Shown: positions 13,991-64,000, counted from the first letter of the stretch. The stretch is 64,000 bases of DNA from Geotalea toluenoxydans JCM 15764 (GCF_001311985.1 NZ_BBCJ01000012.1:1-64000), one strand, 5' to 3'. The notes: a model not told the origin generated them from the letters alone. Numbers and translations are program-made.

Positions 13991-13997
13991 TAAAAAG

Positions 13998-14103
13998 TTC
14001 CCTCCCCCTGGTGGACCCGCGGGGCCTAAAGGGAGGGTTAGGGAGAGGGGGGAAGCGGAAGATCTCACCCTCCCCCTTACCCCTTCCCATCAAGGGAGGG
14101 GGA
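13998..14103. repeat. Intergenic ccctc/gaggg repeat element, copy 1
   Basis: A G/C-block element with the core GGACCCGCGGGGCCTAAAGG, followed by a second inverted block, fills the gap between fdnH and the nrfD-type gene. A related copy lies on the other side of that gene at 15352. Confidence 0.75.
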
Positions 14104-14131
14104 ATCCTTATATGGCATTGGAGGACAATAA

Positions 14132-15330: not shown

Positions 15331-15351
15331 GAACCAAAAGGAGCTGTGGTT

Positions 15352-15487
15352 TCAGTTCCCTCTCCATGAGGACCCACAGGGCCTAAAGGAGAGGGTCAGG
15401 GTGAGGGGGAAATGGTGGATGCATTGATATGGCTGTTCCCCTCATCCGGCCTTCGGCCACCTTCTCCCCCAGGGAGAAGGCTATGGG
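15352..15487. repeat. Intergenic ccctc/gaggg repeat element, copy 2
   Basis: It shares the core GGACCCACAGGGCCTAAAGG with the element at 13998, followed by 'CTCATCCGGCCTTCGGCCACC' type palindromic sequence. Together they flank the nrfD-type gene. Confidence 0.7.
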
Positions 15488-15532
15488 GGGGATTGATATT
15501 GCCGTTGACTTCACTCTCTAAACAGGATCGTC

Positions 15533-16195
15533 ATGCATCTCAGCAACTTTAGGACCCAGAGTACCAACGTCACCGGCGTCATCCTCGCCGGTGGCGCCTC
15601 CAGCCGTATGGGGAGCAACAAGGCCCTCCTCCCTTACCGGGGAGGGCGTTTCATCGAGGCGATCCATCGCCAGCTGACGGCGATCTTCCCCGAGGTCATC
15701 GTTGTTACCAACACACCGGAGCAGTACCGGTTTCTCCCCTGCCGCACGGTGGGAGATATCTTCCCCGGCATGGGGGCGCTGGCCGGCATCCATGCCGGGC
15801 TCTTCCACAGCACCACCCCGGCCATCTTCGCCGTCGCCTGCGACATGCCCTACCTGGATGACGAGCTGATACGCTACCTTGCCGGGCGCTATAATCCAGC
15901 CGGTGTGGTGATTCCCGAAAGCGACGGCGGCCTTGAACCGCTCCATGCGGTATATGGGCGCGGCTGCCTGGATGCCATGGAGAAGAGCCTGGCAGCAGGG
16001 AAGAAGCGGGTGGTTTCCTTTTTCGATGCGGTTCCCGTGGAGGTCGTGCCGGCCGATCTGGTGGCCTGTTTCGACGGAGGGTTCAACTCTTTCCGCAACA
16101 TCAATACCCCCGCCGACTACTTCAGTCTGCGCGGGGAGCATACGGTCGTCCACAGCAGTAACAACAGCAGCGCCATAAGCAAAAGGAGAGAGTAA
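15533..16195 (+). CDS. mobA: Molybdenum cofactor guanylyltransferase, copy 1
   Basis: 220 aa, normal MobA length. It transfers GMP from GTP to molybdopterin to make the guanine dinucleotide cofactor required by formate dehydrogenase. The nucleotide-binding motif 'LAGGASSRMGSNKALLPY' is at residues 18-35, and 'ACDMPYLDDELI' carries the metal-binding Asp. 'SFRNINTPADY' is the typical C-terminal motif. It shares its stop codon base with the tatA start (TAATG). A second, similar mobA lies in the other formate dehydrogenase cluster. The ribosome site is weak. Confidence 0.93.
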   Translation: MHLSNFRTQSTNVTGVILAGGASSRMGSNKALLPYRGGRFIEAIHRQLTAIFPEVIVVTNTPEQYRFLPCRTVGDIFPGMGALAGIHAGLFHSTTPAIFAVACDMPYLDDELIRYLAGRYNPAGVVIPESDGGLEPLHAVYGRGCLDAMEKSLAAGKKRVVSFFDAVPVEVVPADLVACFDGGFNSFRNINTPADYFSLRGEHTVVHSSNNSSAISKRRE

Positions 16196-20866: not shown

Positions 20867-23800
20867 ATGGCAGTTTCTCGAAGGAATTTTCTCAAGCTTT
20901 CCGGGGCCGGGCTGGCGGCATCGGCGCTGGGGCTGGATCTGGCCCCGCTGGAGGCGAAGGCGGAGGACCTTCCCATCCGCTTTGCCAAGGAGACCACTTC
21001 AATCTGTCCTTACTGCTCGGTGGGGTGCGGCATGATCATGCATACCTGGGTGGGAATCTGATCAACGTGGAGGGGGACCCGGACCATCCCATCAACGAGG
21101 GGGCGCTCTGTCCCAAGGGATCAGCTGTCTTCCAGCTGCGGGATAACCCGGCCAGGGTGACCAAGCCCATGTACCGTGCCGCCGGCGCCAAGGAATGGCA
21201 GACGGTGACCTGGGACTGGGCCATGGACGAGATTGCCAGGCGGGTGAAGAAAAGCCGCGATACCAGCTTCGTTGCCACCAGCAAGATCAAGGTGAAAGAG
21301 AAGGTGGGGGCCGCCGAGGTGGAAAAAGAGGTGACGGCCACCGTCAATCGCACCATGGGCATGGCCTCGGTGGGTAGCGCCGCACTGGACAATGAAGAGT
21401 GTTACCTGTACCAAAAACTATTAAGGGGGTTGGGCCTGGTGTACATCGAACATCAGGCGCGCATTTGACACAGCGCAACTGTAGCGGCTCTGGCAGAGTC
21501 GTTTGGACGCGGTGCAATGACCAATCACTGGATAGATCTGAAGAATTCAAATGTTATTCTCATCATGGGGGCCAATCCGGCGGAAAACCACCCGGTCTCC
21601 TTCCGCTGGATATTGAAGGCCAAGGACGCAGGGGCCAAGGTTATCTGCGTCGATCCACGTTTTACCCGTAGTGCGGCCAAGGCGGACATCTATGCGCCGC
21701 TACGCTCGGGCACCGATATTGCCTTCCTCGGCGGGATGATCAACTATATCCTGCAGAACAAGCTTTACTTCGCCGATTACGTCACGCACTACACCAATGC
21801 CGCCATGCTGGTATCAGCCGATTTCAGGATGCCGGACAAGCTTGACGGCCTTTTCTCCGGGTATGACCCCAAAAAGCGCAGCTATGATGCCAAATCCTGG
21901 GGATTCCAGAGAGATGGAGCAGGTAATCCCCTTACCGACCCGACCCTCAGTGATCCGAACTGCGTATTCCAGCTTCTGAAGAAACACTACGCTCGCTATA
22001 CCCCGGAGATGGTCTCCAGCATTACCGGTACCCCCAAGGAGACTCTGGTCGAGGTGTACAAGGCATATGGCTCCACCGGCGCCCCCGACAAGGCGGGGAC
22101 CTCCCTCTATGCAATGGGCTGGACCCAGCATACCGTGGGGACGCAAAATATCCGGGCCATGTCCATCATTCAGCTTCTTCTGGCAATATCGGCATTGCCG
22201 GGGGCGGAGTAAACGCCCTGCGCGGCGAGTCCAATGTCCAGGGCTCAACCGACCATGGCCTGCTTTTCCATATCCTTCCCGGTTACCTGCCCATGCCGTC
22301 TGCTGATTTGAAGGACCTTGCCGCTTACAACGCCAAGTACACCCCGAAGAGCAACGACCCCCAGAGCGCCAACTGGTGGCAGAACCGCCCCAAATATATC
22401 GCCAGCTACCTGAAGGCCATCTACGGGGGCAGCGCCACCAAGGAAAATGATTTCGGCTACCAGTGGCTCCCCAAGATGGACCCGGGCATGAACGGCTCGT
22501 GGCTGATGATCTTCGACCAGATGATCAGGGGGAAATTCAGCGGCTTCTTTGCCTGGGGGCAGAATCCGGCTTGCTCGGGAGCCAACTCCAACAAGGTGCG
22601 CAAGGCCCTGGCCAAGCTGGACTGGATGGTGGCGGTCAATCTCTTCGACAACGAGACCGCCTCCTTCTGGCGCGGTCCGGGCATGGATCCCGCCAAGGTG
22701 AATACGGAGGTCTTTCTCCTGCCTGCCGCCGCCTCCTTCGAGAAGGAGGGCTCCATCACCAATTCGGGGCGCTGGGCCCAGTGGCGCTACGCGGCGGTGA
22801 AGCCCCTCGGCCAGTCCAAGGCCGACTCGGAGATCATGAACGAGCTTTTCTTCCGCATCAAGGGGCTTTATCAGGTAGAAGGGGGCGCGCTCCCCGAGCA
22901 ACTTACCAACCTGACCTGGAACTACGGCTTCAAACGGGCCGATGGCATAATCCGGAGCATTGATATCCATGCGGTGGCCAAGGAGATCAACGGTACCTTC
23001 ATTGCTGAAGTGGAGGACAAGCCCAAGGCCAAGCCTGGAGAACCGCCGCCACCGCCACCGCAGCCGTGGGAGAAGAAACTGCTCGGCAAAAAGGGTGAGC
23101 TGATCGATGCTTCGCCAAGCTGCAGGCCGACGGCAGCACCGCCTGCGGCAACTGGATCTACTGCCAGAGCTACAACGAGAAGGGGAACATGATGGCCCGG
23201 CGGGTGAAAAAGGACCCCACCGGCCTGGGGATGTTCCCCGAGTGGTCCTGGTGCTGGCCGGTGAACCGGCGCATCATCTATAACCGTGCTTCGGTCAACC
23301 TGGAGGGCAAGCCGTTCAATGTGAAGAAGGCGGTTGTTTACTGGAACCCGCTGGCGGTTCTGCCCGACGGCAAGCTGGGCAAGTGGGAAGGGGATGTGCC
23401 CGACGGGCCGTGGCCACCAATGGCCGATGCCAAGGACGGGCGCAAGCCGTTCATTATGCGTGCTGATGGCCTGGGGGCACTCTTCGGGCCAGGCTTGAAG
23501 GATGGGCCGTTCCCTGAGCATTACGAACCCGTGGAATCGCCGGTAGCGAAAAACCTGCTGTCGAAGCAGCAGATCAATCCGGCGGTGAAAATCTTTGCCG
23601 ATGGCGCTATTCCCGAGGATGTGCTGGCCTCGGCTGACAGCAAATTTCCCCTTGTGGCGACTACCTACCGGGTTACCGAACACTGGCAGACAGGCGTCAT
23701 GACCCGTAACACCCCTTGCTGCTGGAACTGCAGCCAAGGCAGTTCGTGGAAATGAGCGTTGAACTGGCCAAGGAGAAGGGGCTGAAGAATGGCGATCAGG

Positions 23801-24036
23801 TTGTAGTTTCTTCGGCCCGGGGAAGCATCGAGGCTGTGGCCGTGGTTACGCCGCGCCTGAAGCCCATGAAGATTGGAGACCGTCTGGTGCACCAGGTTGG
23901 GCTGCCATGGTGTTTCGGCTGGTGTACACCGGGGGTGGGGGATGCGGCCAATCTGCTGACCCCGACTGCCGGGGATGCCAATACCATGATTCCCGAAACC
24001 AAGGCCTTCATGGTCACGCTGAAGAGAAGGGGGTGA
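20867..24036 (+). CDS. fdnG: Formate dehydrogenase 2 alpha subunit, selenocysteine-containing (four frameshifts)
   Basis: About 1057 aa when single bases lost near 21052, 22185, 23108 and 23717 are restored; each loss can be a collapsed GG run. It has a Tat signal ('SRRNFLKLSGAG'), the cluster motif 'CPYCSVGCGM', 'GDPDHPINEGALCPKG', and an in-frame UGA at 21466-21468 in 'EHQARI-U-HSATVA', the selenocysteine position. It is a second periplasmic formate dehydrogenase. Relative to copy 1 it carries an insert around residue 720 with a run of nine prolines ('PGEPPPPPPQPW'). The start ATG follows AAGGAGG. It heads the operon fdnG-fdnH-fdnI-fdhE-mobA. Confidence 0.92.
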
Positions 24037-24041
24037 GCGCC

Positions 24042-24818
24042 ATGACCGATACCAGGAAAGGATTTCTTATAGATACTTCCCGCTGCATCGGCTGCCGTTC
24101 ATGTCAGGTGGCCTGTAAGCAGTGGAACAAGCTGGATGCGGAGAAAACGGGCAAGGAGCAGGTGGGCGCCGACGCAGAGCTGACCGCCAACCTCTACAAC
24201 CGCATCCATTTTATGGAAAGGGCAAGCGGCACCGGGGTCACCTGGGCCTTTTTCAACGAGCGCTGCATGCACTGCGGCGATGCCGGCTGCCTTAAGGTCT
24301 GTCCCTCGCCGGGGGCGCTCTATCGTACCAGGGACGGCATTATCGCCTATAACAAAGAAAAGTGTATCTCCTGCAAGTACTGTGTTTCTGCCTGTCCCTT
24401 CAACATCCCCCGTTATGGCGCTGACGACAAGGTGGCCAAGTGTCACGTCTGCCAGGATCGCGTCGCCGGCGGCATGGCGCCGGCTTGCGCCAAATCCTGT
24501 CCTACCGGGGCCATCACCTTCGGCAACCGCAGTGAATTGATCACCAAGGCCAAGGCCGCCAAAAAGAAACTCTACGGCGAAAATGACCTGCTCGGGCTCG
24601 GTGTGGTCTATGCACTGGAGGGGCCGCCGGCCGATTACGGTCTGCCTGCCAAGCCATCGATCCCCCTTTCCATCTTTCTCTGGAAAGATGTGGTCAAGCC
24701 TCTGGGAATCCTCGGCTTCTGGGGGAGTATCGGCGCCATGCTGCTCCACTACGTGACGGTGGGGCCGAAACGGCCTGAACATGAGAATGGAAACGGCACG
24801 GAGGAAAGACATGAGTAA
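24042..24818 (+). CDS. fdnH: Formate dehydrogenase 2 iron-sulfur (beta) subunit
   Basis: 258 aa and intact. Four [4Fe-4S] cluster motifs are visible: 'CIGCRSCQVAC', 'CMHCGDAGCLKVC', 'CISCKYCVSAC' and 'CHVCQDR…CAKSC'. A C-terminal hydrophobic helix ('GILGFWGSIGAMLLHYV') anchors it. It is the electron relay between FdnG 2 and the cytochrome b subunit. It starts six bases after fdnG and overlaps fdnI by eight bases. Confidence 0.94.
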   Translation: MTDTRKGFLIDTSRCIGCRSCQVACKQWNKLDAEKTGKEQVGADAELTANLYNRIHFMERASGTGVTWAFFNERCMHCGDAGCLKVCPSPGALYRTRDGIIAYNKEKCISCKYCVSACPFNIPRYGADDKVAKCHVCQDRVAGGMAPACAKSCPTGAITFGNRSELITKAKAAKKKLYGENDLLGLGVVYALEGPPADYGLPAKPSIPLSIFLWKDVVKPLGILGFWGSIGAMLLHYVTVGPKRPEHENGNGTEERHE

Positions 24819-25422
24819 CTATATCGATCGTTTCAATACCAAGGAACGGGTGCTGCACTGGTTTGTCACCACCACCTTTTTTACTCTTCTTCTCTCGGGA
24901 CTGGGGCTTTACTCGCGGCTTTTCACCGGCTACTTCAACCTCTTCGGCGGCGGCCAGAAAGCTATTACCATCCATAAGATCGCCGGTGTCCTTTTCTTTA
25001 TCAGCTCCCTCGTTCTTTTCCTCCACAACCGTGCCAGAACCGTTGATTTCAACCGCGATGACCTGGAATGGTGCCGCTACCTTGGGGGGTACCTGAGCCG
25101 GGAAGAAATTCACCTGAAGGTGGGCAAGTTCAACGCCGGACAAAAAGTATTCGGCGTCTTCATCGGCCTGGCGACACTCTTTCTGGGCATCACCGGCATC
25201 TTCATCTGGTGGCCCCTCGCCTTTCCCCGCTGGATCGTGCAGCTGTCCCTGCTCATCCACGGTCTGCTGTTCGTGCTGTCGGCCATGTTCGTCGTTGTTC
25301 ATGTCTACCTGGGAACCATCGGCAATCCGGGCACCCTTGAAGCAATGCTCTGGGGTAAGGTTTCCCGTGCCTGGGCCAAGAAGCACCATCCAAAATGGTA
25401 CAAGGAAGTGACAGGGGAGTGA
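24811..25422 (+). CDS. fdnI: Formate dehydrogenase 2 cytochrome b (gamma) subunit
   Basis: 203 aa with four membrane helices and His residues placed for two b haems ('RVLHWFV', 'TIHKIAGVLFF', 'LLIHGLLFVLS', 'VVHVYLG'). It passes electrons to menaquinone at the inner membrane. The start ATG at 24811 has GAGGAAAG upstream; the preceding ten in-frame codons belong to fdnH. The first cluster uses an NrfD-type protein instead. Confidence 0.93.
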   Translation: MSNYIDRFNTKERVLHWFVTTTFFTLLLSGLGLYSRLFTGYFNLFGGGQKAITIHKIAGVLFFISSLVLFLHNRARTVDFNRDDLEWCRYLGGYLSREEIHLKVGKFNAGQKVFGVFIGLATLFLGITGIFIWWPLAFPRWIVQLSLLIHGLLFVLSAMFVVVHVYLGTIGNPGTLEAMLWGKVSRAWAKKHHPKWYKEVTGE

Positions 25423-25424
25423 AC

Positions 25425-26266
25425 ATGCCCAATACAGCAGCGAAGCTTGAGTTTCTGCGCAAAACCGTCTGCGACCATCCGGAATACGGCGAGATCCTGC
25501 CGCTGTTCCAGGCCCTGTATCAGGTCATCGATGGGCAGGAAGAGCGGACAGGCATCCATTTCAATCAACCGGCCGACCATGTGCAGGAAAAAGTGAGAAA
25601 TGGCTTTCCTCTTCTCACCCCTGAACACCTGGAGATCGATCCTCCCCAGACAGTCGCTTTTCTCACAGTAGTCATCGAAGCCATGTTGCAGGTGAGCAGG
25701 GAGGGACACGACGAACTGAGCCGCTTGCGGCAGGCAATCGCTTTGGGGAAACTGGACCTGCAACCACTCTTTGCCGGCTGTCTTTCCCGGGAAAGAAGCG
25801 CTGTGGAGGAAGCTGCCGCCCAATTGGAGGTCCCTTCGCCTCTCATGGAATTTGTCCTGGAAATTCCATTGAAAACTGCCCTGGGAATTTACGCCGAGGC
25901 AATCTCTCCCGAGCAGGTTTCGGGCTGGACAGAAGGGTACTGTCCAATCTGCGGCTCCAGGGCAGGCATGGGGGAAATCTGCGGAGATGACGGCAAGCGT
26001 TTTCTCTCCTGCTCCAGCTGTTTCTTCAAGTGGCCTTACAAGCGATTGAAATGCCCCTATTGCGGGAATGACGATCCGGATACCTGTCATATTTCATGGT
26101 CGGGGAAGGACCGACGCGGGTGGATGTATGCCGCAAATGCAGCAGGTACCTGAAGACCAGGGATGCCAGGATTGGTAATTCAGAAGTGCCCCTGGAAGCG
26201 GAAGACCTGGCGACCATCCACCTTGATCTATTGGCAGGCAAAGAGGGATTCGAGCGTGGCAAATGA
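25425..26266 (+). CDS. fdhE: Formate dehydrogenase maturation protein FdhE (one-base frameshift)
   Basis: About 280 aa after restoring a T lost near 26092. FdhE is needed for activity of respiratory formate dehydrogenases and binds iron through rubredoxin-like Cys pairs. These are visible as 'CPICGSRAG', 'CSSCFFKW', 'CPYCGNDD' and, after the break, 'CRKCSRYLK'. It begins two bases after fdnI and its end overlaps the GTG start of mobA, so all are one operon. Confidence 0.92.
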
Positions 26267-26930
26267 GATACCCAACATAACCGGCGTCATATTGGCCGGC
26301 GGCACGTCGAGCAGGATGGGGAGTAACAAGGCGCTCCTTCCTTACCAGGGGCGCAGGTTGATCGAAAACGTATATGGCCACCTGGCAGCCGTTTTTACCG
26401 AAGTTCTTGTCGTCACCAATGCACCACAGCAGTACCGTTTTCTTCCCTGCATGAAAGTGAAGGATGTTTTCGCCGGCGGGGGGGCCTTGGCCGGCATTCA
26501 TGCCGGGCTCTGCCAGAGCGGGAGCCCGGCCGTCTTTGTCGTTGCCTGCGATATGCCCTATCTGAACGAGGCGTTCATTCGCCACCTGGCTTCAAAAGCT
26601 GCCAGTGTCGACGTGGTTATCCCCAGAGGCCCGGCTGGTCTTGAACCGCTCCATGCCGTATACGGCCGTGGCTGCCTGGCTGCCATGGAAGCGAGCCTGA
26701 TCAGGGGTGAAAAGAAGATTTCTTCCTTTTTCGGCGAAACTACCGTGGAGATCGTTACCGAGGAGCACATCACAACTTTCGACCCCGAATTCAAATCTTT
26801 CCGCAACATCAACACTCCCATGGACTACTATCGGCTGCGCGCCGAGAGGCACAGCGAAAGCCCCTTCTTCAAGCATGTGCAGCGGTACGATTCCGACTCA
26901 TGCTCCCTTACTTTCTTTAATCTGATTTGA
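26256..26930 (+). CDS. mobA: Molybdenum cofactor guanylyltransferase, copy 2
   Basis: 224 aa from the GTG at 26256, overlapping the fdhE stop. It has the same core as copy 1: 'LAGGTSSRMGSNKALLPY', 'ACDMPYLNEAFI', 'GLEPLHAVYGRGCL' and 'SFRNINTPMDYY'. It then carries a different C-terminal tail of about 25 residues. Each formate dehydrogenase cluster thus ends with its own MobA, which suggests the clusters duplicated together and later diverged. Confidence 0.92.
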   Translation: MANEIPNITGVILAGGTSSRMGSNKALLPYQGRRLIENVYGHLAAVFTEVLVVTNAPQQYRFLPCMKVKDVFAGGGALAGIHAGLCQSGSPAVFVVACDMPYLNEAFIRHLASKAASVDVVIPRGPAGLEPLHAVYGRGCLAAMEASLIRGEKKISSFFGETTVEIVTEEHITTFDPEFKSFRNINTPMDYYRLRAERHSESPFFKHVQRYDSDSCSLTFFNLI

Positions 26931-52510: not shown

Positions 52511-52596
52511 ACCACGAATGACACGAATTGACACGAATAAAACCTAAACCAGGTTTTTGATTTTTAAATTCGTGAATATTCGTGAAATTCGTGGTT
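52511..52596. repeat. ACGAAT-type inverted repeat element, copy 2
   Basis: Arms match copy 1 at 32632 (CCACGAATGACACGAATTG; ATTCGTGAAATTCGTGG) while the central 20-25 bp differ. It lies between speA and the MFS gene, ending about 30 bp before the MFS start. Confidence 0.9.
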
Positions 52597-52626
52597 AAAA
52601 GCTTAAAGGCTTCTTCGGAGGTCCTC

Positions 52627-53796
52627 ATGTTCCGCGGCATAACCGGTAATGTCCTCATTCTGGGCATAGTCAGTTTCTTGACTGACGTTTCCAGCGAGAT
52701 GATCTATCCGCTCTTGCCGCTGTTTCTCACAACCGTCCTCGGTGGCGGGCCTGCCTTTCTCGGTATCATCGAAGGGGTTGCGGAGTCCACTGCCTCATTC
52801 CTCAAGCTTTTTTCGGGCATCGTTTCCGACCGGGTAAAAAACCGGCAGAGGCTTGTTTTCTGGGGCTACACGCTTTCCTCTGTTGCCCGCCCCCTGATGG
52901 CCGTCGCCACAGCCCCCTGGGCAGTACTGCTGATCCGCTTTTCCGATCGGATAGGAAAGGGGATCAGGACGTCGCCACGGGATGCCCTCATTGCCGATTC
53001 TGTAGATCCATCACTGAGGGGCAAGGCCTTTGGCTTTCACCGTTCCATGGACCATGCAGGCGCTGTTGTCGGTCCTCTCATTGCCACCTTTCTTCTGGCA
53101 TACGTCACCAAGGACTTGCGGACCGTATTCTGGCTGGCGGCTATCCCCGGCCTGCTGGCGGTACTGATGATCGTGCTGCGGGTCAGGGATGTCGCCCGCG
53201 CCAGAAAAGAGAGCGATGGCCGTTTTCTCCAGGCCGTTCCCAAAGGAAATTTAAAAACCTATTTGCTTATCCTCTTCCTCTTTACCCTTGGCAACTCTTC
53301 CGATGCATTTCTCCTGCTCAAGGCGGGGCAGCTCGGCGTTACTCCGGCACGTATCCCGCTGCTCTGGACCTTTTTCCATGTGATCAAGATGACTTCCTCC
53401 ATGCCCTTCGGCGCCCTCTCGGACCGGATCGGCCGTCGCGGCATAATCCTTAGTGGTTGGGGGATCTATGTCCTGACCTACCTGGGCTTTGCCCTGGCCG
53501 TAACGGAACTCCAGGTTTGGCTTCTCTTCGCCTTCTATGGGCTCTTCTATGGTCTCACAGAAGGGGTCGAAAAAGCACTTTTGATGGATATTGCACCGAC
53601 AAACGAGCGTGGGACCGCCTTTGGCTGGTACAATTTCGCCATCGGCGCCGGCGCGCTGCCCGCAAGCCTCCTCTTCGGCTTTGTCTGGCAACTGGCGGGG
53701 GCCGGGGCAGCCTTTACCTTTGGCGCCAGCCTGGCTGCCGTTGCTGCCTTGCTCATGTTTTTCTTCATAAAAACGGCAAATCCGCCGGTGCGCTAG
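52627..53796 (+). CDS. MFS transporter
   Basis: 389 aa with twelve hydrophobic helices. The loop motifs 'SDRVKNRQRLVFWGY' (residues about 68-82) and 'LSDRIGRRGIIL' after helix 8 are the major-facilitator signature, and 'RIGKGIRTSPRDALIADS' is typical of one efflux-type MFS subgroup. Substrate unknown. The start is the ATG at 52627 with GGAGGTCCTC; the longer frame to 52582 overlaps the repeat. Intact. Confidence 0.9.
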   Translation: MFRGITGNVLILGIVSFLTDVSSEMIYPLLPLFLTTVLGGGPAFLGIIEGVAESTASFLKLFSGIVSDRVKNRQRLVFWGYTLSSVARPLMAVATAPWAVLLIRFSDRIGKGIRTSPRDALIADSVDPSLRGKAFGFHRSMDHAGAVVGPLIATFLLAYVTKDLRTVFWLAAIPGLLAVLMIVLRVRDVARARKESDGRFLQAVPKGNLKTYLLILFLFTLGNSSDAFLLLKAGQLGVTPARIPLLWTFFHVIKMTSSMPFGALSDRIGRRGIILSGWGIYVLTYLGFALAVTELQVWLLFAFYGLFYGLTEGVEKALLMDIAPTNERGTAFGWYNFAIGAGALPASLLFGFVWQLAGAGAAFTFGASLAAVAALLMFFFIKTANPPVR

Positions 53797-54351
53797 ACTT
53801 TCCCCAGGCTTTTACTCAGTTTTTGCAATTTTCTGTTCGATAATCCAGCCCCTGAATTCAATCCACAGATAGAAGAAAATCTCTTTCCCCATATTTTTTA
53901 CTCAAGTTTTCAACTCTCCCTGTCGACTAGGTAACGGTGCGGCCGATTCGGTCATAAGACTGCTAAAGCCGCCAGTATTCCGGCCATACATGTCAACTAT
54001 GTGACGTCAGTATCTTGACTTGTGACAGGGGGGGCACCGCCCTGTTATTGTCCAGTAAACCGTTTTTTTAATCTTTCGCAAATTCGGCACGATAAGCCAG
54101 TAAGCTATCGGGCGGGGTGTTTGCTGCTTGGTTTTGATTGATTAAGTGATGCTAACTAAAGTTGGCAGGAAATATGCTGACTTATCAGATGTTTGTCCTG
54201 AATGGGTAATTGTTGACAAGAGCTCTTTTTTTCATTAAAACCAAATGCCCCTGCTGTTTAAGGCATTACATGTGGAGGAGGTGATCGGTAACCGTAAGCA
54301 GCAGCTTGTTATGTTTCAGATGTATTAACGCAAGGAAAGGAGGTTCAATTA
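53797..54351. other. Long intergenic region before the first cytochrome conduit
   Basis: About 555 bp with no supported gene. It contains a CAGGG/CCCTG hairpin (about 54026-54047) and the sigma-54-like element at 54163. A TTGACA at 54213 and a purine-rich leader with GGAGGAGG near 54273 are the other features. Confidence 0.6.
54163..54178 (+). promoter_or_regulatory. Probable sigma-54 promoter of the first conduit
   Basis: TGGCAGGAAATATGCT fits TGGCACG-N4-TTGCW with two mismatches and exact GG/GC spacing. It lies about 170 bp upstream of the porin gene. Confidence 0.5.
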
Positions 54352-55566
54352 ATGGGGATTAAAGGGTTATTACGAATGCTTCTGTTCTGCTCTCTGCTCA
54401 GCGCTTCAACAGGCTTGGCGGCTGAGATCCACGGCAGAAGTTCCACCCAGTTTCTCTCGTTTAGTAACGAACTGTTGGATGACAAACGCCAGATCGAGCT
54501 GAACGAGTATCTGCGTTTCTCTATCACCAACATCGACAAGGCCGGCAAATTTTCCATCCACGGCTACGGCAGAGCCTCGCAGGACTTCACCAATGGAGAA
54601 GGTCTGAACGGCCGGCTTTACTATCTGTATGGTGAATATCGCGACCTCTTTGACAAGGCAGATATCAAGATCGGCCGTCAATTTGTCAATCTGGCTGCGG
54701 GAAGCGCCATTATCGACGGCGGTCAGGTGGATGTGAAAAATGTCGGTCCTGTCGCCTTTACCATCCTTGGCGGGCGAGATGTCCAGTTCGGGATTAACGG
54801 TGAGATTGGCGACGCTACCAATACCGTTCTCGGTATGGGCGCCTACCTGACCGGCTTCAAGAACACCGATGCCGAGGTCAGCTGGTTCCGCAAGTGGGAT
54901 GAGGGGGATATCGCCAGGGATATTCTGGGCCTGTCCGGCAAGCAGTATCTGTTCAACAACGTCAAGGTCTATGGTAACGCCAGGTACGACCTCACTGCCG
55001 AAGCCTTCAACGAGGTGCAGGGGGGCTTGAAGTTTTATCCCCTCTCAAACCTGATCTTTACCGGTGAATATTACCAGAGCTATGCCACCTTCGACACCAC
55101 TTCTTTCTACTCGGTGTTCGCCGTTGATCAGTATCAGGAAGGCCTCTTCCGAGTCGACTACACCTTCAACGACATGGTCTCCGTCAACGGCGGCTACAAT
55201 CGTCAGTTCTACGGCGAAGGCGCCCATGCCAATGTCTACCATGTGGGCCTTTCCCTGCGTCCCATCGAACCGCTCCGGGTCAATGTGGAATACGACAACC
55301 GCAATGGCTACTACGGCAGTACCAACGGCGGCATAATCGATGCTTCCTACGACATCAACAAGGCTGCTCAGGTTGCAGGTGGTATTACCTATGACGTTTA
55401 CCAGCGGGATTCTTTAACGGGAGACGAGATAGCCCGTCGGTACTGGCTGGGCGGGAAATACAAAATAGCGAAGAATATGGCGGTATCCGGCCGTATTCAG
55501 GATGATGTCAATGCCCGTTACAGCACAAACGTTTCCGGACGTGTGACGTTCGATTACGATTTCTAG
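54352..55566 (+). CDS. Outer-membrane porin-like beta-barrel of conduit 1
   Basis: 404 aa. A signal peptide ends at 'STGLAA'. The mature protein has alternating beta-strand pattern throughout and ends in 'VTFDYDF', with the C-terminal Phe used for outer-membrane insertion. It is directly followed (15 bp) by a periplasmic octahaem cytochrome and then a lipoprotein multihaem cytochrome, the order of Geobacter porin-cytochrome (Pcc, OmbB-OmaB-OmcB type) clusters. It probably forms the pore through which haems pass electrons. It is a close paralogue of the protein at 59607. Confidence 0.85.
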   Translation: MGIKGLLRMLLFCSLLSASTGLAAEIHGRSSTQFLSFSNELLDDKRQIELNEYLRFSITNIDKAGKFSIHGYGRASQDFTNGEGLNGRLYYLYGEYRDLFDKADIKIGRQFVNLAAGSAIIDGGQVDVKNVGPVAFTILGGRDVQFGINGEIGDATNTVLGMGAYLTGFKNTDAEVSWFRKWDEGDIARDILGLSGKQYLFNNVKVYGNARYDLTAEAFNEVQGGLKFYPLSNLIFTGEYYQSYATFDTTSFYSVFAVDQYQEGLFRVDYTFNDMVSVNGGYNRQFYGEGAHANVYHVGLSLRPIEPLRVNVEYDNRNGYYGSTNGGIIDASYDINKAAQVAGGITYDVYQRDSLTGDEIARRYWLGGKYKIAKNMAVSGRIQDDVNARYSTNVSGRVTFDYDF

Positions 55567-55581
55567 AAAGGAGGTGCCACT

Positions 55582-56282
55582 GTGAAGAAATTGTTGTTTA
55601 TATGTATGCTTCTGCTGATGTCTGCTCTCTATGTGCAGCAGGCGACGGCTCAGAAGCAGCCCCACAAGGAATATGCCGAATCCAAGCTTTCCGAGTGTGC
55701 CAGCTGCCACAAGGCTGAAGGTGTAGCCCCCACCCATGATGCGACTGGGTGCGCAGTCACCGGACCCTGGCAAGCAAGGCCGGCAATAATTGCGCCCAAT
55801 GCCACGACCAGTCTTACTGTCTGGATTGCCATAAGGGTGGCGGGATAAACGCCGACCTGTCGGTGGATAACTTCGGCCGTGATTATGTGCCCAAAAGTCA
55901 TCGCAGCGATTTCGTCAATATCCATCCAATCAAGGCACAGGATAATCCCCAGACATGCTACCGTTGCCATGACCAGAAATTCTGTAACGCCTGTCATGAC
56001 CGCTTCCCCAAAGGAAGCATGCGCATCAAGTCGCACTTGATGTCAGGCAATACCCAGTCCATAAACAGCGTTGCTTTTGGTGAGCATCCTGCCGAGGCAC
56101 GCCGTAACCTGCAGTCCTGCCAAGCCTGTCATCCGGATGGCGATGTCTGTATTCAGTGCCACAGTGCGAAAACCAGTGGAACTAACCCCCATCCCCGCAA
56201 CTGGAGAAGCATCAGCAATAACTACAAGGACAAAGCAGGAAGCAAAGTCTGTACTAAATGTCATCTGCCCGGAACCTATTGA
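55582..56282 (+). CDS. Periplasmic octahaem c-type cytochrome of conduit 1 (one-base frameshift)
   Basis: About 233 aa after restoring a base near 55748. Signal peptide residues 1-24. Eight CxxCH haem motifs are present: CASCH, CAQCH, CLDCH, CYRCH, CNACH, CQACH, CIQCH and CTKCH. Length and haem number match the OmaB-type periplasmic subunit of Pcc conduits, which would hand electrons to the outer lipoprotein cytochrome inside the porin. The GTG start has AAAGGAGG upstream. Compared with its paralogue at 60844 it lacks one haem-bearing segment of about 17 residues. Confidence 0.88.
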
Positions 56283-56310
56283 TAGTTAAATAAACCAAGG
56301 AGGATACAGC

Positions 56311-58080
56311 ATGAGTAGAAACATTTTCAGTTATTCGGCAGTAATTGCTTCACTCCTAGCGACGGCGCTGTTCGCCGGTTGTGGAACGAGCAACAAAGAG
56401 GGCAATCTCTCGGCAGCCGATGTGGCTAAAGTCGAGGAAACGGCATGTGCACAGTGCCACAGCACCGCTATCGACCATATCGCCGGTACTCCCATTTATG
56501 ATGCATACCTGCAGTCAGCCCACTTCACCAACAACTTCCGTGTTGTAGGCTGCCAGGACTGTCACGGTGGCGGCGCACAGCATAACGGCGTCGGGCCTCT
56601 CCCCTATCCCAATCCTGACGCAGCAGGCAAGTGCTTCGAATGCCACGAGAAATATCTGCCGACAAACCATTTTGCCTCTTACACGGCAGCTGCTCATCCC
56701 GGCCAGTACGTGAGCACCAATTACCAGAACTCATGTACCAGCTGCCATGATCCCCATTTAGCCCAAAACGGCATACTTAACGGTGAGATCAATACGGTCA
56801 CCGGTCAGCTGAAGGGCACAGAGCATACCGACTGGGCCGAGTCCGGTCACGGTGAAGTTGACGGCGAAGCTTGGGCTCACTATGATTTCAAGCTTAGAGA
56901 AAACTGCAACCGCTGCCACACCTCGACCGGCTACATTACCTATGTCAGCTCAAACTATGCTTATCCGGTGCCTGCATGGGGCAAAGCAGGGGACAAGACC
57001 AACGAGGTCCTGACCTGTAAAGCTTGCCACACCGACTACAACTTCAAGAACCGCATCCGCCGTGCGGGGGCATTCTCCGCACCCTTCAACGGCAATAAAA
57101 ACCCCATCGCTTTTCCCAATTCCGGAACCTCCAACCTGTGTATCGCCTGCCATAGCGGGTACGAGAGCGGCGGCGCCATCGGTGGCTTTACCGGAACTCT
57201 TACCGCCCTTACGGGGGACATGGACACCAAAACAGCCGTCAACTCCCATTATCTGGCTGCAGCAGCATTGTTCTACGGCAAATCCGCCTTCCATTTCTAC
57301 ACATCAAATGTCAAGTATGACACTGGCTATAACACCGGCAAGAACTTCGGTACCTGGAGCATGGCAAGCTGGGATGATCGATCCGTCGACGAACCAGCCC
57401 TATGTTGCTTCCGGTGTCTCTACCGGCGAAGATGGTCCCTGTGTAGCCTGTCACCTGGGCTCCGTCAACGGCAACACCAGAACCCATACCTTGAGCGCTT
57501 CTGAGACATGGAATGCCCAGGCAGATGTTTCGGCTGCCATAGCAACTTTGCAGCAGAAGGTGGCGTTGATGCCGTCATCGAAGAAGAAAAAGAGCTTTTC
57601 GACAGGGGGCTGGACTTCTATCTCTTTACCCTGGCCAACCACAATATCGGCAACAAGACCCCCGTCTACTATGACGTGACTACCTATCCGTACTTCCACA
57701 AGTCACTGCCTGCCAAAAGGGGCACAACCGACTTCAAAACCTGGACCATGGGCACGGCTGACAGCACCATCGGTAAACAGGTCATGGGCGTTGCATTCAA
57801 CTACAACCTGATCAACAGGGAGAAAGGTGCCCACGTCCATAACCGCAGCTACACACGTCGACTGATGTTTGACGGGATCCAGTACCTGCAGAAGGGTGCA
57901 AATACTTACTCTACCTCCACAGGTGCCATTGGTGGAACTGCTGACCCCAATGCCCAGCTATCCTTCACGGGATACTCAACGGCAGTGGCTGCAGGAACTC
58001 GTCCGGCTAACCCTGTCAGCATTTCACAGCTCAAGGGCTGGCTGTTGAGATCGTCCGGTGGTCTGTACTATAGAAGGTAA
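56311..58080 (+). CDS. Outer-membrane multihaem lipoprotein cytochrome of conduit 1 (frameshifted)
   Basis: About 590 aa with single-base losses near 57349, 57372 and 57516. The lipobox is 'LFAGC'. Nine CxxCH motifs are visible: CAQCH, CQDCH, CFECH, CTSCH, CNRCH, CKACH, CIACH, CVACH and, after the last break, CFGCH. The C-terminal third lacks haems and has 'GAHVHNRSYTRRLMFDGIQYL'-type sequence common in Geobacter Omc proteins. It should sit on the cell surface as the outer electron exit. The start has AAGGAGG, and a strong terminator follows. Confidence 0.86.
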
Positions 58081-58104
58081 TATTGTTTACCTGCTGTAAC
58101 TCGA

Positions 58105-58135
58105 AACCCCGCTTCGCAAGAAGCGGGGTTTTTTT
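58105..58135 (+). terminator. Terminator of conduit 1 operon
   Basis: An 11-bp perfect stem with a GCAA tetraloop (58105-58115 with 58120-58130) is followed by a T run, 25 bp after the cytochrome stop. Confidence 0.93.
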
Positions 58136-58202
58136 ATCGCTGAGGATCTTTTTCTGTGCAAATCTTTGGACCGCGGATAAAATAGGTTCTGCGGCAGAAA
58201 AT

Positions 58203-59360
58203 ATGAGTGATACCTTCAAAAAAAATAGCGCGGTCTGTGCTGCCTTCGGGCTATCCCTGGCGCTGCATGTGGCCCTGTTTTTCCCGTTTGCCGATTACGG
58301 CAGCTACAACTTTGCCAGGCCGGTGTCTTCGGCCGGAGCGGTCATGGTCGATCTGGCAATGGCCCAAGGTAAATCAGCGGCCAAGTCCCATGTGGCGAAA
58401 ACATCATCGGCCGGTACAAAAGCCGGGAAGCCCTACGTTTCTCGTGCAGCATTCTCCTACGACACACCTGCAGCCCCTCTCAGAGAACAGGATCAAGAAG
58501 CGCTTTCCGGTGCACATGTTGCCGAGCAAACCACTACTATCCCTGCAGAACAAGCAGCATCAAAAAAAGAAACAAGCACCGAGCACCTTTCCAAGTCCCT
58601 GCTGCAAGAATTGCCTCCTCCCCTGCGCACTGCCGGCGAGTTCACCACCACATCCCATGAACGGCTCAACTACCGCATCAGCCTTCTGGGAATGCCCATC
58701 GGCGTTGCCGAACTGGAGGCGAAAAACGATAAAGGGGAAATGAAAATTTCTCTGAAGGTTAAATCCACTCCTGCCATTTCCGCCGTTTACCCCATCGACG
58801 ACCTGATCGAGACCCGCCACATCGCCGGCAATTTCATCATCACCAAAATTCGGCAGCAGGAAGGGAACTTCAGGAGCCACCGGGGCTTCACCATCTTTCT
58901 GCGCGACAGGAGCGTCTTCTGGATCGACCTTTTGCGCAATCGTACCAGCAGGGAAACCATTCCCAATTCCCAGGTGCTCGATCTCATATCTGCCTTTTAT
59001 TTCCTGAGGAACCGTCCGCTGCAGGTCGGCAACACGGAAGAGCTCCATGTTTATGACAGTGATACCTATACTTCGGTTCCGGTGGAAATCCTCCGTCGCG
59101 AGCGGATCAGCCTGCCCGGATTCAGGCACTCGGAAACGCTGGTGGTGAAGCCCAACCTGAAGACCGACGGCATCTTCAAGAGAACCGGCGATGTGACCAT
59201 CTGGCTCACTGACGATGAGTACAAGGTGCCGGTGCGCATGGAAACAAGCATACCTCTCGGCAAGATCACGGCAGAACTTGTTTCGTCCCAGGTTGATAAG
59301 CTGGAACCGGCCACACCCATTTCTCCCGTCCCCCCGTTACCCAAAGGGGTAACGCCCTAA
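58203..59360 (+). CDS. DUF3108 protein with N-terminal membrane anchor
   Basis: 385 aa from the ATG at 58203. The N-terminal helix 'AVCAAFGLSLALHVALFFPF' resembles a TonB-like signal anchor. A Ser/Ala/Gln-rich low-complexity linker (about 40-150) leads to a C-terminal DUF3108 beta-rich domain ('ERLNYRISLLGMPIGVAELE…VYPIDDLIETRHI…DKLEPATP'). DUF3108 proteins are periplasmic or outer-membrane associated with no assigned activity. It lies between two cytochrome conduits, behind a terminator, so it may be independent; the ribosome site is weak. Confidence 0.75.
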   Translation: MSDTFKKNSAVCAAFGLSLALHVALFFPFADYGSYNFARPVSSAGAVMVDLAMAQGKSAAKSHVAKTSSAGTKAGKPYVSRAAFSYDTPAAPLREQDQEALSGAHVAEQTTTIPAEQAASKKETSTEHLSKSLLQELPPPLRTAGEFTTTSHERLNYRISLLGMPIGVAELEAKNDKGEMKISLKVKSTPAISAVYPIDDLIETRHIAGNFIITKIRQQEGNFRSHRGFTIFLRDRSVFWIDLLRNRTSRETIPNSQVLDLISAFYFLRNRPLQVGNTEELHVYDSDTYTSVPVEILRRERISLPGFRHSETLVVKPNLKTDGIFKRTGDVTIWLTDDEYKVPVRMETSIPLGKITAELVSSQVDKLEPATPISPVPPLPKGVTP

Positions 59361-59394
59361 ACACTCAAATCTCTCATCCTCACCTTCAATCCTC

Positions 59395-59466
59395 CTTGCC
59401 CAACTCCCTGCCAGGACCCCCCTGCTCACTGGCGTTCGCTTCCCCCCTATGGCATAGGGGGATGAG
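59395..59466. repeat. CCCCCCT/AGGGGG intergenic repeat
   Basis: Contains CCCCCCTATGGCATAGGGGG, a near-palindrome related to the G/C-block elements elsewhere in the window. Confidence 0.65.
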
Positions 59467-59606
59467 GGCCGTGTATTTTGCAGTTAAAAATAATTTTCTC
59501 CCGCAGTGAATAATAGAGAAAGGATGGTAAATTTGTACAAGCAAATTAAGCGTAACTAATTAAATGAGCTGTCGTTCTACCAATAATGGAAAGGAGGGTT
59601 CACTGA

Positions 59607-60833
59607 ATGGGCTACAAAAGGGTCTGGCATTGGTTGTTACTGGTCTTTCTGCTGAGCGGGACAAGCGGCTGGGCAGCGGAAATACATGGCCGCAGTTCCA
59701 CCCAGGTGCTCTGGTTCAATGACTTCTATAACGGTCGCCAGATTGAAGCAGCCGAGTATCTTCGTCTTTCTGCAACAAAGCTGACCAGTGACGGCAAGTT
59801 TTCCATTTACGGCTATGGCCGAGGAACACAGGACTTTACCAATGGCGAGGGGCTGAATGGGCGCCTATACTTTCTGTATGGCGACTATCGCGATCTGCTG
59901 AATGTATTCGATGTGAAGGTCGGCCGTCAGTTCGTCAACCTTTCGGCAGGAACCACCATTATCGATGGCGGCGAACTGATCGTGAAGAATATCGGTCCTG
60001 CTGGCCTGACGGTATTGGGAGGCCGTGATGTGGTTTTCGGGATCGACGGCGAGTTGGGGCATGCCGGAAACTATGCCTTTGGCGCTGCGGCTTATCTGAA
60101 CGGCCTGAGAAAGACCGACCTTGATATAAGCTGGCTTCGCAAATGGGATTCGGGGGATGTTTCCCGGGACATCATGGGAGCGTCATTCAAGCAGTATCTG
60201 TTGGACCGGGTGAAGCTTTACGGCAATGCCCGCTATGACCTGACTGCCGAGGTATTCAACGAGGTTCTCGGCGGGGTCAAATATTTTCCCTCTGCCAATC
60301 TGGTGCTGACCGGAGAATGGTTCCAGAGCTACCCCACCTTTGATACCACCGATATCTTTTCCGTCTTTGCCGCCGACAGATACCAGGAAGGGGTTATTCG
60401 GGCAGATTACACAATCAACAAGATGCTGTCGGTCTATGGTGGCTATAACAGGGAAGAGTTCGGGGACGGGGCCAGCGCCAACGTCATCGAGGCCGGCGTA
60501 AATCTGCGGCCGCTGCCCGATCTGCAGCTCACCTTCGAATACGACCGGCGTGTCGGTATCGGCAGTGATGACAGCAAGCTGGACGGCGGGCTGTTCGAGG
60601 CGGCGTGGGATATGACCAAAGCCTTTCAGCTGGCAGGCGGTTTGGGTGTCGATGCCTATGATCGTGAAATCTTCCACAGCTCAACGGGTGAGCAGATTGC
60701 GCAGAAATACTGGCTAGGCAGCAGGCTGAAGCTGGCCAATAACATGAGTGCCTCTCTGCGCATCGAAGATGACATCAATGTGACTTACAACAACAACGTT
60801 CAAGGACGTTTCATCTTTAATTACGATTTCTAG
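59607..60833 (+). CDS. Outer-membrane porin-like beta-barrel of conduit 2
   Basis: 408 aa, paralogue of the porin at 54352 along its whole length (shared 'AEIHGRSSTQ', 'NGEGLNGRLY', 'KIGRQFVNL'/'KVGRQFVNL', 'IIDGG', 'YGNARYDLTAE', 'FNYDF' end). Signal peptide ends near 'SGWAA'. It is intact and precedes the nonahaem cytochrome by ten bases. The ribosome site AAAGGAGGG matches that of conduit 1. Confidence 0.86.
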   Translation: MGYKRVWHWLLLVFLLSGTSGWAAEIHGRSSTQVLWFNDFYNGRQIEAAEYLRLSATKLTSDGKFSIYGYGRGTQDFTNGEGLNGRLYFLYGDYRDLLNVFDVKVGRQFVNLSAGTTIIDGGELIVKNIGPAGLTVLGGRDVVFGIDGELGHAGNYAFGAAAYLNGLRKTDLDISWLRKWDSGDVSRDIMGASFKQYLLDRVKLYGNARYDLTAEVFNEVLGGVKYFPSANLVLTGEWFQSYPTFDTTDIFSVFAADRYQEGVIRADYTINKMLSVYGGYNREEFGDGASANVIEAGVNLRPLPDLQLTFEYDRRVGIGSDDSKLDGGLFEAAWDMTKAFQLAGGLGVDAYDREIFHSSTGEQIAQKYWLGSRLKLANNMSASLRIEDDINVTYNNNVQGRFIFNYDF

Positions 60834-60843
60834 AAAGGGGGGT

Positions 60844-61623
60844 ATGGCGGTGAAAAACTGGTTTTTTGTCTTTCTGCTGATTTCCTTGCCGGCTGTCTAT
60901 GTGCAGCAGGCAGTCGCCCAGAAGGAGTCCCACCGGGATTATGCTTCCATGAAAGTTGTCGAGTGCAACGACTGTCACAAGAATGAGGGGGTCGCACTCA
61001 ATCACGATGCCGACTGGCTGCGGGGGCACCGGCTGCCGGCCCAGAAGGGTGTATCCAACTGCGGGCAGTGCCATGATCAGTCCTATTGCCTTGACTGCCA
61101 TACGGGGGGAGGCATCAATGCCGATCTTTCAACCCAGAATTACCGGCGGGATTATATCCCCAAAAGTCACAAGAGCGACTGGATAGAGATCCATCCCATA
61201 AAGGCCCAGGATAATCCCCAGTCCTGCACCCGCTGTCATGACCAGAAAAACTGCCAGGATTGCCACTCCCGGTACCGGTCCACAGACCTGCAGTTCCAGT
61301 CCCACCGGCGCCAGTTCCGGGACATCAAGGTCAGCGATATCGGCCCGAACCATGCCATCTTCACTACCGCCCAATGTCCCACATGCCATCAGGGGGGGAT
61401 TCTGCCGAGCCATCAATGGTCATCGGATCATGCCTCGGAGGCGCGGCGCAATCTGCAGTCCTGCGGTACCTGCCACAGTGACGGCGATGTCTGCATGACC
61501 TGCCATAGCGCGCGCACCGGTCTCAAGATCAATCCCCATCCACGGAACTGGAACGGGATCAAGGGCAACTACAGGGACAAGAGCAGCGGCAGGACCTGCG
61601 TCCGCTGCCATGACAGATTTTAA
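60844..61623 (+). CDS. Periplasmic nonahaem c-type cytochrome of conduit 2
   Basis: 259 aa and intact. It has a signal peptide and nine CxxCH motifs: CNDCH, CGQCH, CLDCH, CTRCH, CQDCH, CPTCH, CGTCH, CMTCH and CVRCH. It aligns with the octahaem protein at 55582 except for the extra segment around CPTCH ('ISDIGPNHAIFTTAQCPTCH' region), which contributes the ninth haem. This provides the intact reference for the frame repair in that paralogue. Confidence 0.92.
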   Translation: MAVKNWFFVFLLISLPAVYVQQAVAQKESHRDYASMKVVECNDCHKNEGVALNHDADWLRGHRLPAQKGVSNCGQCHDQSYCLDCHTGGGINADLSTQNYRRDYIPKSHKSDWIEIHPIKAQDNPQSCTRCHDQKNCQDCHSRYRSTDLQFQSHRRQFRDIKVSDIGPNHAIFTTAQCPTCHQGGILPSHQWSSDHASEARRNLQSCGTCHSDGDVCMTCHSARTGLKINPHPRNWNGIKGNYRDKSSGRTCVRCHDRF

Positions 61624-61658
61624 ACAAAGATAAATATACTGGAAAGGAGGAATCATCA

Positions 61659-63917
61659 ATGGGCAGAAGCGTATCGTTGCAGTTGTTCCTTGCCGTTTTC
61701 CTGGTGTCCGGGTTGCTTGGCGGCTGCGGCTCGTCCAAGAAAGAAGGTGAGCAACAGACTCAGGTGAGTGCCCCAACCAAAGTGGGTTCCGAAAGCTGTA
61801 CCAACACCTGTCATAGTACCACCAGGGATATTACCGGCAATATCATCGCCCAGGCCTGGGCAAATACCACCCATACGACCGTGCAGGGCGTCCAGTGCGA
61901 GGATTGTCACGGCGGCGGCAGCATGCACTGGGGTGTCGGGCCGATGCCGTTCCCCATTCCCCAGGCCGAGCAATGCAGTCAGGCCAGCTGTCATGCCTCT
62001 TTCCTTTCGGGCTTCAATCAGACCGCCCATGCCAACACCCACGCGGAAGGGGCGCCTTTCGGGCCTGACAAGTTTTTCTTCCAGGGAGACCCCGGCAGCG
62101 GCCAGGCAAGTCTGAGAACAAGAAACGGGACTGATATTCAGGAGGTTACGCCGACCGGTCAGCCTGTGAACAAATCGCAGCACATCGTAGAATGCTCGGT
62201 CTGCCATAATCCCAACCAGCGTTTCGTCGCCTACAGCACCAATCTGTTCAGGCCGTTCCAGAGGAATTTCCCCAGCGACACCGGTGAGGATTCCCAGAAC
62301 CAGAATGGGGAAGACAGCAACTTCCAGAGCCGATACATCAACCCGGCGGTTTCCTGTGCCGGTTGCCATGATGCCCATCAGCCGCAACAGATGGTAACCA
62401 TTCCACAGCGTACAACGCCGGTGGGTTATTCCATTTATCGCAGATACAGCACTCCTGAGCTGGGGCGGATTCAGGGAACCATCTTTCAGCCCAATGGGGT
62501 GGTGCTGACCGGAGTTCCAGTTGCCGGCACCGCCACCAACAACAATGAAGTCAGTCCGGAACTGCTCTGCGCTGCCTGCCATACGGTCAGCAAATACAAG
62601 TTTTCCAATCTCTCCACCCACCAGAGCAACGTCTATCCCCAGTGGACCCATTCGGGACATGGTGAAAGAGAAAAGCCGGCCTGGGCCGAGTTTTCAGCAA
62701 ACCTGCGGGGTACATCAATCCACTTACAGGGCTCGCTTATACTGATCTCGGCCATACCACCAGCTATCCCGTCGATATGGCACTCAGGAGTTATGGCGCC
62801 ACCGCAAGTGCAACGAGCAATCAGGGTAACAACAATTTTGCCTGCTTCAAATGCCACAACGGCCTCACCTCTATTGCATACCAGAAAAATATCCAGGGAA
62901 CACCGGCAGCGCCGGTAGTCTTCGGAGATGCCAGCGCTACCTGCATCACCTGCCACGATCCACACCAAAAAGGCACCTTTGCCGGCGGGGCAAATACCAC
63001 CAGCAACATCCGTGTTCCGGTGGCAATGACCAATTACTCAACTGCCAACGTCAAGGTCTTCGGCAATGTCTTCCTGGATAATCAGCCGATCCCCCAGAAC
63101 AATGCCAACGAGACCATCTGCATTTTCTGTCACCAGGGCCGGGAGAGCGGCTTCACCCTATATCGGGCCAAGCTGGCGCCGGGCAAAAGCTCTGCCGGCG
63201 CGTTCTTCAATCCCCACTACCTGGCACCGCAGCAATGCTGTGGGGAGCCAACGGTTACGAATTCAGCGGAAAATCCTACAGTGCCAATGTGGCCCATCAG
63301 CAAGCAAACTGTGCCAGCTGCCACATGGATAATGCCACCGAAGACGACACCATCGGCGGACATAGCTGGAATCCGAACGTCGCTTCCTGCAATACCTCCA
63401 GTTGCCACGGCGGAGGAGTCGGCCCAGCTGTTGCGGCAAAACCGGGCACCGCTGCACCTGAGGTCAACGCTTACCGGGCTGCCTTCGATACCAGCGATTA
63501 TGATGCAGCGGTGCTCTTGAGCCGATAGCAGTTGAAATAAAAGGCCTTCAGGACAAACTGATCGCCCTTCTTGCCGCCAACGGCATTTTCTATACGGATC
63601 TCAAGTATCCCTATTTCTTTGCCGATCCCGCCTTTACCACCAACTACACGGCCTGGAACACGGCGACCGGAGGTACAACAGCTTTCAAGGCTGCGTTCAA
63701 TCTGCAATTCATCATCAAGGGGCTACCATCCGCGGCAACATCTCAAACGGCTGTGCCCAATGCTTCTGCAGCCGTGCATAACCACAAATACATTATCCAG
63801 TTGCTCCGCGATTCATACGAGGAATACAACGCGGTGGCAGCAGCCAAAGGGGCAACCCTTTCAGGTGTGAGGCCGGCGGGTACAAGACCTGCAACTGTCT
63901 ATGGTCCGGGTCAGTAA
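61659..63917 (+). CDS. Outer-membrane multihaem lipoprotein cytochrome of conduit 2 (frameshifted)
   Basis: About 753 aa with single-base losses near 62708, 63228 and 63517. The lipobox is 'LLGGC'. Canonical haem motifs are CEDCH, CSVCH, CAGCH, CAACH, CFKCH, CITCH, CIFCH and CASCH. Unusual spacings also occur: CTNTCH (CX3CH), CSQASCH and CNTSSCH (CX4CH). That gives eight to eleven haems. The C-terminal region 'SAAVHNHKYIIQLLRDSYEEYN' is typical of Geobacter Omc cytochromes. It is longer than its conduit 1 counterpart and only distantly similar to it. It should be the surface-exposed exit of conduit 2. Confidence 0.86.
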
Positions 63918-63940
63918 GGAGTTTTTTTGAGAATGGAACA

Positions 63941-63974
63941 GCAAAAAGCCCCGAGGTCTCTTCGGGGCTTTTTG
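63941..63974 (+). terminator. Terminator of conduit 2 operon
   Basis: A 14-bp stem (GCAAAAAGCCCCGA pairing with TCGGGGCTTTTTGC), with an A tract before and a T tract inside the 3' arm, 24 bp after the cytochrome stop. Confidence 0.92.
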
Positions 63975-64000
63975 CATTGAATCGAACACAAATCCGATTC

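Follow-up and report, generated by a model that had tools for sequence, protein, structure and literature searches.

Two probable trans-outer-membrane electron conduits of old paralogous lineages, with mosaic surface cytochromes, at one locus of Geotalea toluenoxydans

The window analysed here, a stretch of 64,000 nucleotides of contig C12 from Geotalea toluenoxydans JCM 15764 (NZ_BBCJ01000012.1:1-64000), carries two sets of genes, each coding for a porin, a periplasmic multihaem cytochrome and a lipoprotein multihaem cytochrome, which we regard as very likely electron conduits of the porin-cytochrome (Pcc) kind. Conduit 1 spans positions 54352-58080 and conduit 2 positions 59607-63917, with a gene for a DUF3108 protein between them, all seven genes being on the plus strand. 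The initial annotation of this DNA had described two sets of the same order flanking a DUF3108 gene and differing in haem count; all seven genes are indeed present in that order, and the periplasmic and lipoprotein cytochromes carry eight plus nine haem motifs in conduit 1 and nine plus eleven in conduit 2. The stretch is 95.8% identical at the nucleotide level to a single-contig relative, G047, which we take to be G. daltonii FRC-32, yet this is a different species-level genome. Haem counts, and identities between lipoproteins and between periplasmic subunits, are taken from the intact G047 copies.

Both porin genes are intact open reading frames. Of 141 genomes of the order, 69 code for relatives of porin 1 (404 amino acids, 54352..55566), an OmbB-type protein that is 57-58% identical to porin 2 (408 amino acids, 59607..60833). 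The AlphaFold model of porin 1 comprises a signal helix and a 22-strand barrel (predicted local distance difference test score, pLDDT, 83.7); its listed fold matches in the PDB are exclusively outer-membrane barrels, namely siderophore receptors, ushers and porins, and a PDB search by sequence found no solved relative of it. MtrB does not appear among the listed matches, an absence that carries no weight for or against a relation to MtrB. For the porins of Geobacter metallireducens, 20 strands have been predicted (PMC11389400). Directly after each porin gene follows that of a periplasmic cytochrome with a hydrophobic N-terminal signal. Periplasmic 1 (55582..56282, GTG start) is an OmaB-type eight-haem cytochrome whose eight CXXCH motifs are spread over two frames in the window, its G047 counterpart being intact (233 amino acids, eight CXXCH), and periplasmic 2 (60844..61623) is an intact cytochrome with nine CXXCH motifs. 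The two are 50% identical. A PDB sequence search with periplasmic 2 gave one marginal match only, to a reaction-centre cytochrome; periplasmic 2 and lipoprotein 1 both exceed the cut-off of the MtrC/MtrF II/IV Pfam domain, a match that a shared haem-motif pattern may explain.

The third gene of each set codes for a cytochrome with a lipobox, and both products are predicted to lie at the cell surface. Lipoprotein 1 (56311..58080, lipobox LFAGC-G, 590 amino acids in its intact G047 form) has nine CXXCH motifs. Lipoprotein 2 (61659..63917, lipobox LGGC-G, 750 amino acids and intact in G047) has eleven haem motifs, spread over three frames in the window: eight CXXCH, one CX3CH and two CX4CH. Confirmation of such atypical CX3-4CH motifs is cited by Shi 2014 (PMC4245776). 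As the initial annotation had it, the porins and the periplasmic subunits are clear paralogues, a barrel is predicted (for porin 1, to which porin 2 is 58% identical), and the lipoproteins have diverged strongly, far more so than the porins: identity between the two is 40% for residues 1-116 and falls to 24.5% in a further 432 columns. Because of this residual identity we regard the outer parts, or antennae, of the two conduits as distant homologues; the idea that they are unrelated folds was dropped, as single-linkage clustering groups most lipoprotein C-termini in one diverged superfamily.

What the two lipoproteins have in common is an N-terminal module made up of the first ~95 residues after the lipid-anchored cysteine, in which three haem motifs and the signature CHGGGxxHxGxGP are found; by alignment the module occupies positions 56380..56673 in lipoprotein 1 and 61725..62012 in lipoprotein 2. 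Of 48 surface cytochromes, 45 matched a profile of the module at E <1e-10 (17 of the 48 were used to build it), and among 84 candidates in the source genome only the two conduit lipoproteins gave strong matches (E 4.7e-39 and 3.0e-35 respectively), the next, a non-conduit protein, scoring 3e-9. The surface cytochromes are thus mosaics: their N-terminal three-haem module is conserved and specific to conduits, and what follows it has been exchanged. The module is presumably where the lipoprotein makes contact with the barrel and with the periplasmic cytochrome. We did not find it described in the literature, in a search that was not exhaustive, and it offers an annotation handle for surface cytochromes, which are hard to recognise from overall similarity. 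In two relatives, G050, which we take to be G. uraniireducens Rf4 (L054:12493-15958), and a second genome (L078:7733-11754), an extra multihaem lipoprotein gene lies between the conduit-2 periplasmic gene and that of the module-bearing lipoprotein; in presumed Rf4 the inserted gene codes for an eight-haem protein and the module-bearing lipoprotein is the next gene. Lipoprotein identities for conduit 2 of presumed Rf4, and the rows L054_10455 and L078_5706 of the lipoprotein tree (conduit 2 of Rf4 and G054), were excluded.

In phylogenies of the porins (48 sequences) and of the periplasmic subunits (46 sequences), the two sets belong to separate lineages, both of which also include proteins of other species and genera. 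Porin 2 falls on a separate branch of the porin tree, and in the periplasmic tree the nine-haem lineage, periplasmic 2 included, forms one side of a branch with support of 100/99. The conduits are therefore two old paralogous lineages, one with an eight-haem and one with a nine-haem periplasmic subunit, kept side by side. All five Geotalea-level genomes searched (that of the window, G047, G048, which is SG265, G049 and G050) have two such porins, and the DUF3108 gene lies between the sets in those genomes wherever contigs permit a view.

The initial annotation further suggested that the inner parts had been kept and the outer exit swapped, and this is visible in situ in relatives. Between G047 and SG265, the conduit 1 porins are 94% and the periplasmic subunits 90% identical, but the lipoproteins only 41%; between G049 and presumed Rf4 the corresponding values are 94.5, 88.8 and 29%, with 12 versus 9 haems in the lipoproteins. 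Across pairs, porin and periplasmic scores correlate at 0.68 and porin and lipoprotein scores at 0.21, and the trees of the lipoproteins and of the porins disagree. In isolate H2geo (PJFC01000010.1; L006, L016), two recent porin-periplasmic copies lie 52 kb apart with 96.6% DNA identity; the matching stretch starts shortly upstream of the porin gene, extends into the lipoprotein gene and gives way to sharp divergence ~98 codons in. A DUF3108 gene stands behind only one of these two copies. That the outer cytochromes are unlikely to have co-evolved with the porin and periplasmic parts was published by Shi 2014 (PMC4245776), and Starwalt-Lee 2026 describes Geobacter cytochromes as fast-evolving and often confined to one species, with raised mutation rates and exchange (PMC12977616).

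Gene order, subunit sizes, the eight-haem OmaB-sized subunit, the lipobox, the predicted barrel and near identity to G047 (presumed FRC-32) all argue for the assignment made in the initial annotation, namely to the Geobacter OmbB-OmaB-OmcB system, and we hold with considerable confidence that this Geotalea species possesses two complete conduits of this kind, descended from old paralogues. Under such an assignment, electrons from periplasmic carriers would pass to the eight- or nine-haem cytochrome sheathed in the porin barrel, and this cytochrome would carry them over the outer membrane to the N-terminal module of the lipid-anchored surface cytochrome, which would dock through that same conserved three-haem module. 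They would then leave by the variable part of the surface lipoprotein, an exchangeable outer antenna, for Fe(III), electrodes or partner cells. If so, a fixed module with an exchanged antenna would be a concrete rule for fitting new outer exits to an old conduit.

By analogy with characterised relatives, the Geotalea conduits may be expected to assemble into complexes, to conduct electrons and to serve partly different acceptors, and it is plausible that the two have different extracellular acceptors. However, divergence alone need not mean a different acceptor, since fast evolution and exchange of cytochromes are general in Geobacter (PMC12977616). The strongest alternative accepts the Pcc assignment but holds that the conduits are functionally redundant, the difference between their lipoproteins reflecting nothing but that general pattern of raised mutation rates and exchange in surface multihaem cytochromes. 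Judged by sequence, the orthologous conduits of sister species, with lipoproteins at 41% and 29%, appear to diverge as strongly as is needed to explain the lipoprotein difference without recourse to function, and in G. sulfurreducens (PMC4589669), as in G. metallireducens, one cluster of a pair makes up for the loss of the other. Against redundancy, the two lineages have long been retained, with eight versus nine periplasmic haems and separate upstream regions, and in G. metallireducens the phenotype depends on which single cluster is deleted, the roles being partly distinct, overlapping and compensating (Zhuo 2024; PMC11389400). We consider redundancy a serious possibility, if one falling somewhat short of an even chance, and a partly different acceptor preference somewhat more likely than full redundancy. 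Paired Pcc conduits help to set which outside acceptors the relatives of Geobacter can breathe.

Some points weigh against the assignment to Pcc. First, the likeness to OmbB, OmaB and OmcB and to the G. metallireducens proteins is one of published features, not of direct alignment. Second, the window lacks an OrfR-like TetR regulator directly upstream of conduit 1, porin 1 being preceded there by a gene for an MFS transporter (52582-53796) and a 555-bp gap. TetR genes do precede porin 1 in presumed Rf4 and in H2geo; an OrfR/OrfS-like regulator is nonetheless not defining for Pcc, because published clusters vary, comprising two to nine genes. Third, of the four cytochrome genes only that of periplasmic 2 is a single open reading frame in the window: periplasmic 1 has one frameshift near 55740, lipoprotein 1 has two that compensate each other, located between about 57380 and 57510, and lipoprotein 2 has frameshifts near 62700, 63223 and 63507. 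Taken at face value, these breaks would make the genes true pseudogenes and the conduits systems in decay in this strain. However, the broken genes are intact in both G047 and SG265, comparable frame breaks relative to G047 affect many unrelated genes of the window, high identity is kept in neighbouring frames on both sides of each break, and the source genome is an 84% complete assembly in 77 contigs. Decay is accordingly very improbable; because the genes are intact in relatives and similar breaks occur window-wide, we read the frameshifts as assembly errors, and with so many genes affected, a reading of this assembly based on open reading frames is unreliable. Least probable of all is a recent tandem duplication, which adjacency, shared order and homology might suggest but which is refuted for this pair, since the sets fall in different lineages, each porin and periplasmic subunit grouping with proteins of other species and genera and not with its neighbour, identity is only 50-58%, and some genomes have just one of the two lineages.

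What can be said of the gene between the two conduits? It codes for a DUF3108 protein of 385 amino acids (58203..59360, plus strand; PF11306, 3.3e-25) with an N-terminal membrane helix, a low-confidence linker and a C-terminal LolA-like domain. The helix carries an SxxxH motif (SLALH), found in 62 of 62 relatives of the same long class. SxxxH is a motif of TonB; a TonB C-terminal domain was nevertheless not found in the protein, DUF3108 being its sole domain detected, and the protein may thus be TonB-like in its working, yet not a TonB. A model built on seven sequences (mean pLDDT 65) finds its fold matches in DUF1849 (6ntr, Z 17.5) and in LolA, LolB and RseB (Z about 7.5-9), while a PDB search by sequence returned no solved relative. 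The protein has no haem motif, and the G047 sequence is likewise devoid of CXXCH. This is at odds with the listing of FRC-32 Geob_1683, which by numbering should be the same gene, as a c-cytochrome, placed by Shi 2014 among those of the cytoplasmic membrane (PMC4245776).

About 60 of the 141 genomes of the order have a DUF3108 protein of the long class; a shorter DUF3108 protein that these genomes encode at another position is distinct from it. Porin and long DUF3108 occur together in 42 genomes, the porin alone in 27, DUF3108 alone in 21 and neither in 51, a co-occurrence above expectation (Fisher p 2e-4, over genomes that are not independent). Where enough upstream sequence was available, 34 of 58 long-class genes follow a multihaem cytochrome gene at a distance of no more than 1 kb, counts that shared ancestry makes non-independent; five of these 34 have no OmbB-type porin in the fetched stretch. 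A strictly conduit-bound role was rejected, as the remaining 24 of 58 lack a multihaem gene in the 1 kb that precedes them. In G023 (L096:8037-12154) and G043 (L134), the long DUF3108 gene lies directly 3' of a gene for a ten-haem lipoprotein cytochrome, and the neighbourhood contains no OmbB-type porin. In view of these two cases, DUF3108 may be a partner of the lipoprotein and not of the conduit. More speculatively, and on balance improbably, the protein could be an inner-membrane protein energised by ExbB/D whose LolA-like clam handles the surface lipoprotein, for example in exposing it on the outer leaflet and docking it to the barrel via the module. Were this true, its action would be a step driven by proton-motive force in the building of an electron conduit, and a neighbour that is both TonB-like and LolA-like would be a candidate for a missing step in conduit assembly.

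Each set is followed by an intrinsic terminator of its own, at 58103..58132 for conduit 1 (13-bp hairpin and T run, -23.2 kcal/mol, z -6.1) and at 63941..63975 for conduit 2 (16-bp hairpin, -28.1 kcal/mol, z -6.4), both on the plus strand, and the two sets are therefore probably separate transcription units. We rely on these two strong hairpins only, because promoter and terminator scans were overall at chance level. Upstream of conduit 1, a weak candidate sigma-54-type promoter, TGGCAGGAAATATGCT (54163..54178, plus strand), is a consensus match only: it has the GG-N10-GC spacing and matches TGGCAN7TGCW exactly, as do four sites in the window in all, and a resembling sequence, TGGCAAGGTTTATGCT, occupies the aligned position in SG265. 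An Rfam search of the window found no GEMM-type riboswitch upstream of either conduit, only matches at chance level, and the same search of six related loci gave a single Moco-II element and nothing else. Elsewhere in the window, the block at 10237-16133 shares 65-74% nucleotide identity with the G047 counterpart of the block at 20994-26841, and vice versa, so that the two constitute another duplicated neighbourhood.

The locus is a known kind of system, already published for the species that is probably the closest named relative. Shi 2014 reported adjacent Pcc clusters less than 64% identical to each other in FRC-32, Rf4 and G. metallireducens, and atypical haem motifs in FRC-32 Geob_1686 (PMC4245776). 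The FRC-32 and Rf4 clusters are like those described here in gene order, adjacency and the <64% identity between sets, and the motifs of Geob_1686 fit those of lipoprotein 2. What the present analysis adds is the age of the two lineages, the mosaic nature of the surface cytochromes, and the SxxxH and LolA-like features of the DUF3108 protein. In G. metallireducens, Gmet0908-0910 (pccF) and Gmet0911-0913 (pccG) are adjacent and 26-62% identical (Zhuo 2024; PMC11389400); their periplasmic subunits have nine and eight haems and their outer cytochromes ten and nine, compared with nine and eight, and eleven and nine, in the window. By numbering the order of the sets is reversed in that species, and orthology rests on the haem signature. 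The OmbB-OmaB-OmcB and OmbC-OmaC-OmcC conduits of G. sulfurreducens likewise consist of tandem sets of porin, eight-haem periplasmic cytochrome and lipoprotein cytochrome (PMC4589669, PMC6148476), the former having been found to move electrons across proteoliposome membranes (cited in PMC4589669). However, the G. sulfurreducens sets are near-identical recent duplicates with twelve-haem OmcB and OmcC and OrfR/OrfS regulators, whereas those of the window are old paralogues with nine- and eleven-haem outer cytochromes and no adjacent regulator.

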